A program made the translations under genes and the position numbers. Source: Asticcacaulis sp. MM231 (lineage in GTDB: Bacteria > Pseudomonadota > Alphaproteobacteria > Caulobacterales > Caulobacteraceae). Taken from it: a stretch of 64,000 nucleotides of DNA. Positions 13,441-32,673 of this stretch are shown piece by piece. Every line of letters begins with the position of its first letter. Position 1 is the first letter of the stretch. Under the pieces are notes generated by a model. That model searched no databases and was not told the origin of the DNA. It saw only the letters and a program-made list of their open reading frames with translations. The stretch lies in the NCBI RefSeq assembly GCF_964186625.1, contig NZ_OZ075108.1, positions 1,550,001 to 1,614,000 on the forward strand, in the 5' to 3' direction.

Positions 13441-13486
13441 ACCTCATGAATTGCGCTTGAAACGCGCTCAAACGTTGCGCAGGCTC

Positions 13487-13539
13487 GACGCATTGGCGTC
13501 GGCGGGCGGTAGCCCTTGCCAAATCCGCAAAGGATTTGG
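13487..13539 (+). repeat. Triple-hairpin intergenic repeat, copy 1
   Basis: Three hairpins follow one another: GACGC-ATTG-GCGTC (13487-13500), then GGC GGGC-GGTA-GCCC TT GCC, then CCAAATCC-GCAAA-GGATTTGG (13519-13539). The same architecture with changed but still complementary stems occurs at 17993-18044 (minus) and 31588-31639 (plus). It lies just downstream of the GH99-like gene and could serve as a terminator or be a REP-like element. Confidence 0.75.
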
Positions 13540-13542
13540 AGG

Positions 13543-14565
13543 TCAGTGTCTAAATTGCGCGCTCATGTCTTTGACAGTCTGCAATTCACGCATACCAAAA
13601 GCGGTGGAAGGCTCGATCTGGCTGGCCTCATGCCATTCGTTGAACGACACAATCAGAATCCAGTCTGGTTTGGCGGCAATGGCGGCCTTCCACTGACGAC
13701 GGAACGGTCCACCGTCCTCGCGCTTCACGGTGGGGCGCCGGCCGGTGCGGTCTTTTTGCAGGCGGTCGTCGAAACCTGGCAGGATGGTGGCGGTGGTCAC
13801 TTTGGCGCCGGCCTGCGCTTTCACCCAATCCCTGTAAAACGCCGGTCGCCACAGGGAGGGTATCCAGTGGTGGTCGGCGGTCTCGAACTGCATCGAATAG
13901 ATGTGCAGGCCGTCGAAGGCACTCTTGCGCGCGCTGATTTCCTTTAGTGTATTGGCGGTGCCGACAAAGCTGATGGCGTTAGGCACCTGTTGATCGATCA
14001 GGCGGCGCGCTTTCACCCAGCCATTGAGCCCGATCACCTGCATCAACCGGTCGAAGAGCATGATGACGGGCTTGCCGTCGAGTTTCAGCAAAGCCGGGTG
14101 CTGGCCATACTGCCTGTGCAGGTACAGCACGTCGTCGGCGACCTTTTCGGCGCTTTCCGCCTGTTCGACATAGGAGCAGACCTTGAGGCCGTGCGCCTCG
14201 GCGGCTTTGAGCAGCAGCGGAAACTGCTGATCGGTGCGATCATTCTGCCTCCACCAGGAGGCGATCAGGCCGGTGATGCCAGCGGCCTTCATCTGCGCCA
14301 TCTGACGGTCGATTATCGCCGGATCGAGACTGTCGTAAGGACCACCCACCGGATAGTTGGGCGCATCCTCGATGCGTTCACGTGCAGGATCAGGGTTGAG
14401 CCAATGAATATCTGCGCCGGAACGCACCCTGGTGCCGTACCAGCCGTAATAGAAGACGAGCACTTCGCGCTGGGCGCGGGTTTGCGCCAGGGCGCGCCTT
14501 GGCCAAAGAGCCGTGGCGACAAAGCCGGTCAGCAGGTGACGACGAGACGGTTTAACCAAGGCCAT
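13543..14565 (-). CDS. GH99-like glycoside hydrolase, exported
   Basis: The 340-residue product starts MALVKPSRRHLLTGFVATAL, a leader with a basic region and hydrophobic core ending at RRALAQ, which suggests export, possibly by Tat. VLVFYYGWYGT, MKAAGITGLIASWW and DWILIVSFNEWHEASQIEP match GH99/GH71-like (endo-alpha-mannosidase clan) proteins, with the FNEWHE glutamate as a likely catalytic or binding residue. I chose the ATG at 14565 because AGGGG lies just upstream; a longer frame to 14643 would overlap the preceding gene by 92 bp. The substrate is unknown. It overlaps the upstream membrane-protein gene by 14 bp, so is probably co-transcribed with it. Confidence 0.75.
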   Translation of the reverse strand: MALVKPSRRHLLTGFVATALWPRRALAQTRAQREVLVFYYGWYGTRVRSGADIHWLNPDPARERIEDAPNYPVGGPYDSLDPAIIDRQMAQMKAAGITGLIASWWRQNDRTDQQFPLLLKAAEAHGLKVCSYVEQAESAEKVADDVLYLHRQYGQHPALLKLDGKPVIMLFDRLMQVIGLNGWVKARRLIDQQVPNAISFVGTANTLKEISARKSAFDGLHIYSMQFETADHHWIPSLWRPAFYRDWVKAQAGAKVTTATILPGFDDRLQKDRTGRRPTVKREDGGPFRRQWKAAIAAKPDWILIVSFNEWHEASQIEPSTAFGMRELQTVKDMSAQFRH

Positions 14566-16650: not shown

Positions 16651-17976
16651 ATGCGGTTACGTTATGCCAGTCTGTTCGTTGTCCTGACCGCCTGCACCAC
16701 GGCGGTGTCGCAGCCGGAAAACGTAACGCAGGCGCCCGTGCCGCCGGCAGTGTCTTCCGCAGCGTCTTCGGCCAGTGAGGCCGTAATTCCCGCCAGCCCG
16801 GCCGCGGCGCCCCTGCCGGCCAACGCCACATTCGATGACTGGAAGCAGAGCTTTATCGCCAAGGCGACCGCCAAAGGCTTCGATCCTTTGTTCGTGGCGC
16901 AGGTTCTGAGCAATGTGACTCCGCAGGCCAGTGTCACCTCATCCGATTCGCAGCAGCCGGAGTTTTCCAAACCCGCCAGTTCCTACATGCGCGCCTCGGT
17001 CTCGGCTTCGCGGGCGCAGGCGGCGCGCGCCAGGCTCGACGCCAACGCTAACGTCGGCGAAATCGTCAGCGCCTATGGCGTACCGTCGGAACTGATCGGC
17101 GGCATCTGGACCATGGAAAGCGATCTGGGCCGCGTGCAGGGCAATATAGATGTCGTGTCGGCCCTGGCAACGCTGGCCTATAATGGCCGCCGTCGTGACT
17201 GGGCCGAAAGCGAACTGATCGCCTGCCTGACCATCCTGCGTGATTCCGGCATCAGCCGCGATACTTTGAAAGGTTCGTGGGCCGGCGCGATGGGGCAGAC
17301 GCAGTTCCTGCCCGACAATTACCTGCGCCTTGGCGTCGATGGCGATCATGACGGCAAGGTCGATATCTGGAATTCCGATTCCGACGCGCTGGCCTCATCG
17401 GCGAACCTGCTCGCCAAGGCGGGCTGGAAGCCGGGACAGGAGTGGGCCGTCGAGATCATGCTGCCGGTGGGCTTTGACTATTACCTCGCCGAAACCGCCA
17501 GCAAGACTCCGCTGGAATGGGCGGCGCTTGGCGTCAAGCGCGCCGATGGCGGTTACTGGAAACCTGCCGAGACCGGCGAACAGGCCAAGATCCTGCTGCC
17601 TTCGGGCGCGAAGGGGCCCGCCTTCCTCGCCTTGCCCAATCATTATGTCATCCGTAAATATAACAACTCGACCTCCTACGCTTTGGCGGTGGGGCTGATC
17701 GCCGATAGCATCGCCGGTCGTCCGCCGCTGGTGACACCATGGCCGGTTGAGCCGCCACTTAGCCTCGATCAACGCCTCAAGACGCAGGCAGCGCTGAAAG
17801 CGGCGGGCTTCGATCCGGGCACGATCGACGGCGTGATCGGTGTCGGCACCCGTCAGGCTATCCGTGACTGGCAGCGCGCCAATCAACTGACGGCGGATGG
17901 CTATCTGAGCTTCGATCTTGCCAACCAGTTCGTCGTGTCGCAAGGCGGCACGCCGGCGCTGCGGTCGGCGACATAG
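16651..17976 (+). CDS. Lytic murein transglycosylase lipoprotein (MltB/SLT_2 type) with PG-binding domain
   Basis: The 441-residue protein begins with a lipoprotein leader whose lipobox is LTAC (cysteine near residue 15), followed by an Ala/Ser/Pro-rich linker. The catalytic SLT_2 domain runs from about residue 60 to 340: GGIWTMESDLGR holds the catalytic Glu and GAMGQTQFLPDNY is the conserved substrate motif. A C-terminal peptidoglycan-binding_1 repeat follows (FDPGTIDGVIGVGTRQAI). It cleaves glycan strands to 1,6-anhydro-muropeptides in the periplasm. I chose the ATG at 16651 because AAAGG at 16638-16642 is well placed; a GTG at 16642 is in frame but overlaps that site. Confidence 0.92.
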   Translation: MRLRYASLFVVLTACTTAVSQPENVTQAPVPPAVSSAASSASEAVIPASPAAAPLPANATFDDWKQSFIAKATAKGFDPLFVAQVLSNVTPQASVTSSDSQQPEFSKPASSYMRASVSASRAQAARARLDANANVGEIVSAYGVPSELIGGIWTMESDLGRVQGNIDVVSALATLAYNGRRRDWAESELIACLTILRDSGISRDTLKGSWAGAMGQTQFLPDNYLRLGVDGDHDGKVDIWNSDSDALASSANLLAKAGWKPGQEWAVEIMLPVGFDYYLAETASKTPLEWAALGVKRADGGYWKPAETGEQAKILLPSGAKGPAFLALPNHYVIRKYNNSTSYALAVGLIADSIAGRPPLVTPWPVEPPLSLDQRLKTQAALKAAGFDPGTIDGVIGVGTRQAIRDWQRANQLTADGYLSFDLANQFVVSQGGTPALRSAT

Positions 17977-17992
17977 TCAAGGTCATCATCTT

Positions 17993-18044
17993 CCAAAGCG
18001 GCATCGCTTTGGCAAGGGCAAGCGCCCGCCGTCGCTGATGCGAC
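17993..18044 (-). repeat. Triple-hairpin intergenic repeat, copy 2
   Basis: On the minus strand: GTCGC-ATCA-GCGAC, then GGC GGGC-GCTT-GCCC TT GCC, then CCAAAGCG-ATGC-CGCTTTGG. It is located between the transglycosylase and motA. The first stem differs from copy 1 at two paired positions and the last stem at the three positions nearest the loop, always as compensated pairs. Confidence 0.75.
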
Positions 18045-18100
18045 GTGTCTTGTAAACAAAATAGTAAAAAAGAAGGGTTAATGCCGTCGGTTCGAAACTC

Positions 18101-30941: not shown

Positions 30942-31565
30942 ATGGAGCGTCGTTCGTTTCTTCTGGCCGGTGTGGCCGCCGCCGCCACGCCCCTGATCGC
31001 TGGCCTGGCCCCGCGCCTGGCCATGGCGCAGGATTATCCTGTCGAGAAAGGCCAGCCTGCCGAAAAGCAGGAATATCGCTATTACACGCGTGATGAAATT
31101 CTGACCGCAGGTTCGGATTTCCTCGGTGTGACCGTCGAAGCGCTTGGCGGCGCGCTGGAAAAGATCTTCGCCGACTATGGTGATCACCCCACCGCCTATA
31201 TCGCCGGCACCGAGGCCTCCGGCGCGGTCGGCATCGGCGTGCGCTATGGCAAGGGCAACCTGTTCATGAAGGACGTGCCGGAGCCGACACAACTGTTCTG
31301 GCAGGGGCCATCGATCGGTTTCGATACAGGCGCCAACGCCTCGCGCTGCTTTACCCTGATCTATAATCTGCGCGAGCCGATCTTCATGTATCGCCGCTTC
31401 CCCGGTGTCGAGGGTTCGGCCTATTTCATCGGCGGTCTCAGCCTGACCTATCAGCGCGCCGAAGGCATAGTGCTGGCGCCCATCCGCGCCGGTGTCGGCT
31501 TCCGCCTCGGCGCCAATGTCGGCTATATGAGCTTCTCGAAGAAGCGCCGCGTCATTCCATTGTAA
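30942..31565 (+). CDS. DUF1134 exported protein
   Basis: The 207-residue product begins MERRSFLLAGVAAAATPLIA, a signal peptide with cleavage near AMAQ. The rest fits DUF1134: EILTAGSDFLGVTVEALGG, GAVGIGVRYGKG, FWQGPSIGFDTGAN and C-terminal GVGFRLGANVGYMSFS, a Gly-rich beta structure. The family is common in alphaproteobacteria and uncharacterised. GAGGAG just upstream fixes the start; an in-frame start at 30921 would precede that site. Confidence 0.85.
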   Translation: MERRSFLLAGVAAAATPLIAGLAPRLAMAQDYPVEKGQPAEKQEYRYYTRDEILTAGSDFLGVTVEALGGALEKIFADYGDHPTAYIAGTEASGAVGIGVRYGKGNLFMKDVPEPTQLFWQGPSIGFDTGANASRCFTLIYNLREPIFMYRRFPGVEGSAYFIGGLSLTYQRAEGIVLAPIRAGVGFRLGANVGYMSFSKKRRVIPL

Positions 31566-31587
31566 GAGCTCAAACGCCGCATGGCTC

Positions 31588-31639
31588 GGCGCATCAGCGC
31601 CGGCGCGCGGTCGCGCTTGCCGAAACCTCACGGTTTCGG
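31588..31639 (+). repeat. Triple-hairpin intergenic repeat, copy 3
   Basis: GGCGC-ATCA-GCGCC (31588-31601), then GGC GCGC-GGTC-GCGC TT GCC, then CCGAAACC-TCAC-GGTTTCGG (31620-31639). It lies between the convergent DUF1134 and Gfo/Idh/MocA genes. Every stem differs from copies 1 and 2 in sequence but remains paired. Confidence 0.75.
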
Positions 31640-31641
31640 AA

Positions 31642-32673
31642 TTAGACCTCTAATCTTCGACCTTCGCGTGAGCTGATAAAGCCAAGCTCCAGTAATCGCA
31701 TCACTTTCATCGCGTCCTCTCCGGTCACCGGATTGGGCGCGTTGTCGCGTATGGCCTTCGCCACGGCCTCGTAATAGGCGAGATAATTGCCGGGTGTGGC
31801 GCTGATCTCCTGAGGCGCGCCTGCGGAATCATGCTCGACCGGTGTGAAACGTCCGGTGACCGGATCGGTGCCCCAGCCAGGATCGCCCGGTGTACGGCCG
31901 GCTTTCAGCATCTCTTCCTGCGTATCCATGCCGAACTTGACGAAGGCGCCTTGTGAGCCCTGCACCTCAAGGCAAGGGCCGTTGATGGTGGTCATCATCG
32001 AGCTATGCAGGATAACGCGCAGCGGGCCGTAGCCGAGCGTGGCGTGGAAATAGTCATCAGTCTTTGCACCCGGACGCTGGTCAACAATATCGGCCATAAT
32101 CCATTCAGGCTGACCGAAAAGGCTCAGGGCCTGATCGAGCAGGTGCGACCCGAGGTCGAACCAGATGCCGGAGCCGGGACCCGCGCGTTCACGCCAGCGA
32201 TCGCGCACCACGGGCCGCAGACGGTCATAACGCAGGATAAACTGATAAAGGTCGCCGAGGCGCGGACGTAGGGCTTGGAAAGTCAGGTAGTTGTTGTCCC
32301 AGCGGCGGCAATGGAAGACCGATACGAGCTTGCCGACCCGCTCGGCATGAGCCAGAACCGATTCGCCTTCCGCTACACTGAGCGCAAAAGGCTTGTCGAT
32401 GACGACATGCTTGCCGGCTTCCAGCGCTTCGTGGGCCTGTGAGGCGTGAAGGTCGTTTGGTGTGGCGATCACCACCAGTTCGATAGCGGGATCATTGAGG
32501 GCGGTGGTGAGATCGGGCGCGACCGTGACACCAGAGATATCTGACAGCACATCGGCAGGGCGTGACGATACGATGGTCGTCAGCTCAAGCCCTTTGGCCG
32601 CGCGGATCAGCGGCGCGTGGATGGTCTTGCCGGCATAGCCGTAACCGACCAGCGCTGTCCTGACCCTAGGCAT
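31642..32673 (-). CDS. Gfo/Idh/MocA family oxidoreductase
   Basis: The 343-residue cytoplasmic protein starts with the NAD(P)-binding fold (TALVGYGYAGKTIHAPLI) and has VIDKPFALSV near residue 92, the EKP-like motif with the conserved lysine. The C-terminal alpha/beta domain includes GIWFDLGSHLLDQALSLFG. It probably oxidises or reduces a sugar or inositol derivative. Its start overlaps the end of the 2OG-oxygenase gene by 8 bp, indicating co-transcription. Confidence 0.9.
   Translation of the reverse strand: MPRVRTALVGYGYAGKTIHAPLIRAAKGLELTTIVSSRPADVLSDISGVTVAPDLTTALNDPAIELVVIATPNDLHASQAHEALEAGKHVVIDKPFALSVAEGESVLAHAERVGKLVSVFHCRRWDNNYLTFQALRPRLGDLYQFILRYDRLRPVVRDRWRERAGPGSGIWFDLGSHLLDQALSLFGQPEWIMADIVDQRPGAKTDDYFHATLGYGPLRVILHSSMMTTINGPCLEVQGSQGAFVKFGMDTQEEMLKAGRTPGDPGWGTDPVTGRFTPVEHDSAGAPQEISATPGNYLAYYEAVAKAIRDNAPNPVTGEDAMKVMRLLELGFISSREGRRLEV

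Follow-up and report, generated by a model that had tools for sequence, protein, structure and literature searches.

The closest described system to the element reported here is that of the CcrM-associated intergenic repeats (CIR) of Caulobacter (Chen and Shapiro 2003), whose mobility mechanism was called undetermined in the part of a 2007 review that deals with them (Delihas, PMC2229807). As that part describes it, the CIR plan comprises about 110 bp of intergenic sequence with two inverted-repeat arms, a linker, and GANTC at a terminal loop. The Asticcacaulis element looks similar in architecture, its fresh copies sharing the GANTC-bearing arm, and, judged from the published description, a kinship with CIR is possible. 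However, GANTC is missing from nearly every copy in our study genome, a series of covarying hairpins makes up the linker, and fresh Asticcacaulis copies carry TNA duplications.

Bacterial MITEs, as presented in the relevant portion of PMC10969869, are likewise short, non-coding and intergenic, and a fresh subfamily of the element resembles them in having inverted ends and direct target repeats. The element differs from them in that no parent insertion sequence was found by way of PF13340, PF01609 or end scans, in that the copies first noticed lack shared inverted ends, and in that its structured core is conserved far more in shape than in spelling. GTAG/CGTC REPs, in the portion of PMC3733652 that characterizes them, are palindromic and dispersed, often lie by gene 3' ends or between convergent genes, and also occur within genes, all of which holds for the element; unlike them, it is a longer chain of four hairpins with neither a GTAG/CGTC tag nor a link to RAYT. 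That paper names neither Caulobacter nor Asticcacaulis. As with the Rickettsia palindromic elements (treated in parts of PMC2229807 and PMC3733652), a protein gene may harbour the element in frame, which holds for at least one copy here, whereas nearly all Asticcacaulis copies are intergenic. Literature searches found nothing joining Asticcacaulis with 'repetitive extragenic palindromic' and, in a wider search, nothing among the top-ranked papers on such repeats in Asticcacaulis or its order.

The window, by which we mean the whole stretch of DNA analysed, comprises 64,000 nt of Asticcacaulis sp. MM231 (contig NZ_OZ075108.1, positions 1,550,001-1,614,000; the genome is labelled G000 and its contig C1). 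The original prediction recognised three copies of an intergenic repeat at 13487-13539 (+), 17993-18044 (-) and 31588-31639 (+), and we found both the coordinates and the stems to be as it had described them. The extent of the first copy is correct in position but covers the core of a longer unit: on the strand used in that prediction, a box lies upstream of the core and GGAG or GGAA follows the last stem. This box reads GCTCAAACGCCGCATGGCTC in copy 3 and is diverged in copy 1, and another module takes its place in copy 2. A search of the window for the core pattern gave three exact matches. With up to three mismatches it gave five, whereas 100 shuffles averaged 0.85 and one of them reached five. 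Table 1 gives the coordinates of the copies, their parts and their neighbours.

Table 1. Copies of the element in the window, their parts and the adjoining genes (window coordinates).
Feature	Position	Strand	Remarks
Copy 1, whole element	13458..13541	-	CTCC side at 13541; TTTGAGC box and tail toward 13458; based on model match C1:1563458-1563523 minus (window 13458-13523) plus hairpin H1
Copy 1, hairpin H1	13519..13539	-	Copy-specific 8-bp stem, 5-nt loop
Copy 1, hairpin H2 with outer GGC/GCC	13501..13520	-	
Copy 1, hairpin H3 (GACGC/GCGTC)	13487..13500	-	
Copy 1, box region with GCTC (minus strand: GAGC)	13466..13486	-	
Copy 1, neighbour gene	13543..14565	-	Stop codon 1 nt from the element's CTCC end
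Copy 2, whole element	17991..18065	+	Alternative 3' module instead of TTTGAGC box; based on model match C1:1568008-1568065 plus (window 18008-18065), with H1 at 17993-18012
Copy 2, neighbour gene	16651..17976	+	Stop codon 14 nt from the element
Copy 3, whole element	31566..31641	-	Between stop codons of two convergent genes; based on model match C1:1581560-1581624 minus (window 31560-31624), with H1 at 31620-31639
Copy 3, convergent neighbour	30942..31565	+	Stop codon directly before GAGCTC
Copy 3, other convergent neighbour, oxidoreductase-like	31642..32673	-	Stop codon touches the TTCC end

Across the whole genome, the core pattern with up to two mismatches gave 42 matches, as against three for the reversed pattern, and 27 of the 30 loci fetched from this search were judged by eye to be copies. 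A covariance model (R1), built from 21 copies with the structure set by hand, returned 72 matches at E<=0.01 and 83 at E<=1, three of them in the window. The observation of a repeated hairpin element is confirmed and larger than first reported: this genome contains 72 diverged copies, and those of the window are three among them. Read on the strand opposite to that first used for copy 1, the element begins with CTCC or TTCC and continues with hairpins H1, H2 and H3, a GCC-NNGC-GGC mini-hairpin, a TTTGAGC-like box and an A-rich run (A at 58-65% in positions 3-6 past the box, in the 60 copies parsed of the 72). H1 follows the plan CCAAAn...nTTTGG and H2 the plan GGC-AA-(4 bp, loop of 4)-GCC, while H3 comes in three flavours: GCCGC/GCGGC, GCGCA/TGCGC, and CCGAGC-NNNN-GCGAGG with two opposed G.A mismatches.

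A minority of the G000 copies, copy 2 included, end in a different 3' module. This second module (YATCTCTTACGAA..., with GTGTCTTGTAA as its variant in copy 2) stands where the TTTGAGC box would be, in some cases with a hairpin after it, at C1:3189769, 687079, 93710, 1397620 and 3207284 as well as in window copy 2, which suggests module exchange.

It had been proposed that the repeat belongs to no known family. When the window was compared with Rfam (release 15), a tRNA alone scored above its gathering threshold and the element had no match; at relaxed thresholds it had no credible match either, copy 1 meeting viral and miRNA families at chance level (E 0.7-1). The statement therefore stands as regards Rfam, with the qualification that the Caulobacter CIR, known to us by description, look architecturally similar. 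Copy 1 had no match among plasmid records, and one unit from the sister genome G015 had none among phage records.

The claim that compensatory changes maintain the fold had a thin basis in three copies; it is carried by the 71 aligned copies of the core and by the pairing of H1. Of the 72 copies, 69 have an H1 that could be parsed, and these 69 contain 66 distinct 5' arms. Its 618 pairs comprised 570 Watson-Crick, 33 G.U, 4 A.C and 11 other combinations, of which the pairing total alone is meaningful because the stem finder favours G.U and penalises A.C; when the two were scored alike, the 60 copies past the score limit gave 530 Watson-Crick, 12 G.U, 6 A.C and 6 other pairs. In 49 of the 69 copies the H1 stem equalled or exceeded all but 2% of shuffles of its own flanks. 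As nearly every copy spells H1 differently while the chain of hairpins stays the same, shape rather than spelling seems to be preserved.

In the core alignment, 86.1% of paired cells were paired as against 74.0% after shuffling, two-sided changes numbered 90 as against 30, and the covariation score was 0.263 as against 0.098. None of 500 shuffles reached the observed value in any of five measures, and controls with a slid structure stayed at or below 0.052. This alignment was fitted to the model's own structure, which favours that structure, and relatedness among copies persists through the shuffling. However, in 43 copies H2 occurs at fixed spacing with 13 different arm pairs, indicating that model fitting alone is not the cause of the covariation. 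All three window copies folded better than shuffled sequences on both strands (z -2.4 to -3.3), and in copy 3 the H2 region prefers another pairing.

We also compared divergence between G000 and its close relative G017 in 16 aligned pairs, leaving out gaps and poorly aligned stretches. Third codon positions differed at 10.3%, other intergenic DNA at 3.9%, the element outside H1 at 3.7%, H1 stems at 2.2% (6/278) and H1 loops at 7.0% (5/71). Because the figure for the element equals that for other intergenic DNA, present-day selection on the element is not singled out by these data. A maintained fold, together with mobility of the element, is well supported.

The element is mobile, as comparison of two closely related genomes shows sites at which one has the element and the other lacks it, in both directions. 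We examined the best 30 of 75 G017 copies (E<=0.01). Twenty-one of these match the flanks of fetched G000 loci, mostly at 92-98% identity, and nine have no flank match; of the 21, one weak match was dropped and 20 were aligned, 18 on both sides and two on one side. Among the 18 two-sided comparisons, the element was shared in 15, and the G000 site was empty in one, truncated in one and held a different repeat in one. Since 15 of the 18 compared copies are common to both genomes, movement in G000 is not recent. One of the shared sites has an additional adjacent copy in G000 and another a 12-nt internal loss, and at a third (L387/L138) the two species differ in H2, which in one of them ends in a short loop and in the other carries a long self-complementary extension. 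The different repeat, in locus L145 of G000, is rich in CTCCTCCCC/GGGGAGGAG.

Of the window copies, copy 1 is shared with G017, where it occupies the orthologous position. G017 lacks copy 2 at the corresponding site upstream of a MotA-like gene, and a search of 25 genomes for this site gave a clear match in G000 and, at another position, in G010 only. At the copy 3 site, compared in 11 genomes, the element is present in G000, G017, G019 and G003, the two genes adjoin without it in six, and G015 has a longer unrelated spacer.

Among 25 Asticcacaulis genomes the number of matches ranged from none (G012) to at least 84, and two sister genomes, G010 and G015, contain many near-identical copies. 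Of 60 loci fetched from these two genomes, 55 were parsed as units of 132-162 bp with TACCAA and TTGGTA ends, and 42 of the 55 have an equal TNA triplet on both sides. Label shuffles reached the observed equality in 0, 0 and 26 of 10000 trials in three sets, and we interpret the matching triplets as the signature of an insertion that duplicates 3 bp of its target. For the last 3' hairpin of these fresh units, G010 has 141 occurrences, G015 has 61 and G000 has none, and in some G010 units H2 and the GCC-GGC module are replaced by long alternatives. By eye, fresh-type units were also seen in single loci of G001, G008 and G023. In G000 one copy (C1:1010999, by eye) has ends of the TACCAA/TTGGTA type, the others starting with CTCC or TTCC, and in 16 of the 60 copies parsed the box is immediately followed by TNA. 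The inverted ends and TNA triplets are established for one subfamily in two sister genomes, the window subfamily having CTCC/TTCC and not TACC at its 5' end. In three G010 loci (L092, L353 and L356) another palindromic repeat, of the AGAGCGGGAT...ATCCCGCTCTA type, adjoins the element or is fused with it.

Taken together, these observations are best explained, with somewhat better than even confidence on our part, by an old MITE- or REP-like family of non-coding mobile elements of Caulobacterales, each a chain of hairpins that is moved in trans and whose fold is kept by compensatory change. The mobile unit would comprise a copy-specific H1, H2 and H3 of fixed plan, the mini-hairpin, the TTTGAGC-like box and the A-rich tail, with a last 3' hairpin in some copies. 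A putative DDE-type transposase that duplicates TNA would act on it in trans; such a duplication resembles those of IS5/IS1031-type transposases. The diverged window copies would descend from units moved in the same way as the fresh ones, and the fold may have been kept because it serves mobility or because it lets the element sit harmlessly at gene ends. We sought an autonomous element with TACC ends via PF13340, PF01609 and end scans and found none: no parent transposon was among the three PF13340 and 13 PF01609 matches of G010 and G015, and an end scan of fetched loci of at least 1500 bases gave no paired TACC ends.

We also considered, with considerable reserve, that the element is addressed by its shape, so that a folded strand, as single-stranded DNA or RNA, is read by the mobilising machinery or by a host protein. 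If this were true, copies could drift to their own spelling and swap whole arms, as in the H2 of the orthologous site L387/L138, and still work. Integron attC sites and the ends of IS200/IS605 are elements addressed by their fold, and the present element would be a further one. As old diverged copies and the fresh copies of sister genomes, with their target duplications, occur within one genus, the evolution of the fold can be traced stepwise, and a long-standing question becomes testable, namely whether bacterial intergenic repeats retain their hairpins because these serve mobility or because they act at the ends of genes.

The second of these roles defines a different explanation, in which the element is a hairpin cassette useful to the host at gene ends, blocking read-through or protecting mRNA 3' ends, with mobility secondary. 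We determined the position of 74 model hits, namely the 72 and two of lower score, relative to genes called by a codon-usage script trained on the window. Seven hits overlap a called gene and 67 lie outside, 19 in sense, 16 in antisense, 18 between convergent and 14 between divergent genes. A stop codon lies close to one end in 37 of the 67 extragenic hits, closeness being defined as a distance of up to 15 nt from the 3' end of the hit or of 0-35 nt ahead of its 5' end: 21 of the 34 hits that face an opposing gene end have the stop within 15 nt, and 22 of the 37 that follow a gene end have it 0-35 nt before them. Convergent gaps hold 18 of the 67 hits, whereas they make up five of the 43 window gaps of at least 40 bp (29 co-directional, nine divergent); at p=0.06, this excess is suggestive, no more. 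The cassette explanation also gains from the slower divergence of H1 stems than of H1 loops (p=0.05) and from copies in which, by eye, the 3' hairpin beside the A-rich tail forms a hairpin and T-run on the other strand. A terminator class, one of the identities originally suggested, is not established: scanning of the three window copies gave a terminator-like site on copy 2 and none on copies 1 and 3. However, the 14 copies between divergent genes and the 16 antisense to both neighbours speak against a role at gene ends, and the vicinity of stop codons could simply be where insertion is tolerated. We hold a host-useful cassette to be possible but doubtful.

Two of the seven hits that overlap a called gene were inspected. 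One (C1:2788839-2788904, L047:1501-1566) is genuinely intragenic and lies in frame within a lipB-like gene, where the protein has about 40 extra residues (151-193) that hold the element, between blocks that align with a solved Thermus lipoyltransferase. Another (C1:3308687-3308752, L057:1501-1566) lies on the other strand of an open frame, that of a long gene which, from its translation, we take to be membrane-transport-like.

Somewhat less probable is that the element belongs to the CIR themselves, as found in Caulobacter and other alphaproteobacteria, with GANTC in the loop tying it to CcrM methylation. In favour of this, the fresh G010 and G015 copies consist of two arms joined by a linker, and in 33 of the 37 loci parsed the H1 of the 5' arm contains GANTC. 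However, GANTC is present in H1 of just one of 69 parsed G000 copies. Moreover, of 249 genomes from the order, 29 match at E<=1e-6 (best 20 candidates scored per genome), and these include no further genus of the family to which Asticcacaulis belongs (f1). Should the link to CIR nonetheless be real, TNA would be the insertion mark of that repeat class, for which the part of the review cited (PMC2229807) gives the mobility as undetermined.

A strand-specific cis-regulatory RNA or small RNA in mRNA leaders or tails would account for the covariation of the core and for copies that directly precede a start codon (e.g., C1:2913196). Opposed G.A mismatches, found on one strand in about half of the H3 helices (33 and 32 of 71 rows), point the same way; in the core, G.A outnumbers C.T by 68 to 4, mostly through one H3 flavour that is possibly inherited. 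An excess of G.U over A.C weakly suggests that the strand opposite to that originally used may be the one that folds. That excess is only 40 to 24 (p=0.06), however, and the two strands fold about equally well; moreover, orientation is nearly even (19 sense and 16 antisense), and presence differs among close relatives. A sense-only regulatory RNA is not supported, and we regard regulatory RNAs of this kind in general as improbable.

The suggestion that the repeat is REP-like and moved by a RAYT-type enzyme proved correct as to a multi-copy, mobile, intergenic element (72 copies, full and empty sites), but movement by RAYT, a Y1 HUH transposase, is very improbable: although the element is a small palindromic intergenic repeat and both fresh-copy genomes encode Y1_Tnp proteins, Y1_Tnp (PF01797) is absent from G000 and was found in four of 25 genomes of the genus, several genomes without it hold at least 56 copies, the element flanks none of the six Y1_Tnp loci fetched (of nine matches), target duplications accompany the fresh copies, and GTAG/CGTC tags stand beside the ends in at most 2/60 and 3/58 copies (CGTC 1, GACG 1, GTAG 0 and CTAC 0 on the H1 side of 60; CTAC 2, CGTC 1 and others 0 on the box side of 58). 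Integron attC sites were considered because variable hairpins stand beside stop codons, and were rejected by eye, as the GCTCAAAC box misfits the RYYYAAC core of attC and the copies are dispersed.

When the genome collection was scanned with the pattern, 119 stretches matched, and the 80 listed among them are all from Asticcacaulis. The even draw of 249 genomes of the order yielded at least 29 matching genomes, namely G000 and members of families f3, f4 and f5. At a looser threshold other f1 genera gave single weak matches, the one displayed being coding-like sequence. Family f4 is represented by 59 genomes, 18 of which have a match at E<=1e-5; 17 loci were viewed, the majority with the H2 and H3 plan. 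Locus L087 of G050 (1391-1558), a genome from a different family of the order, contains a related element twice in tandem, about 110 bp apart.
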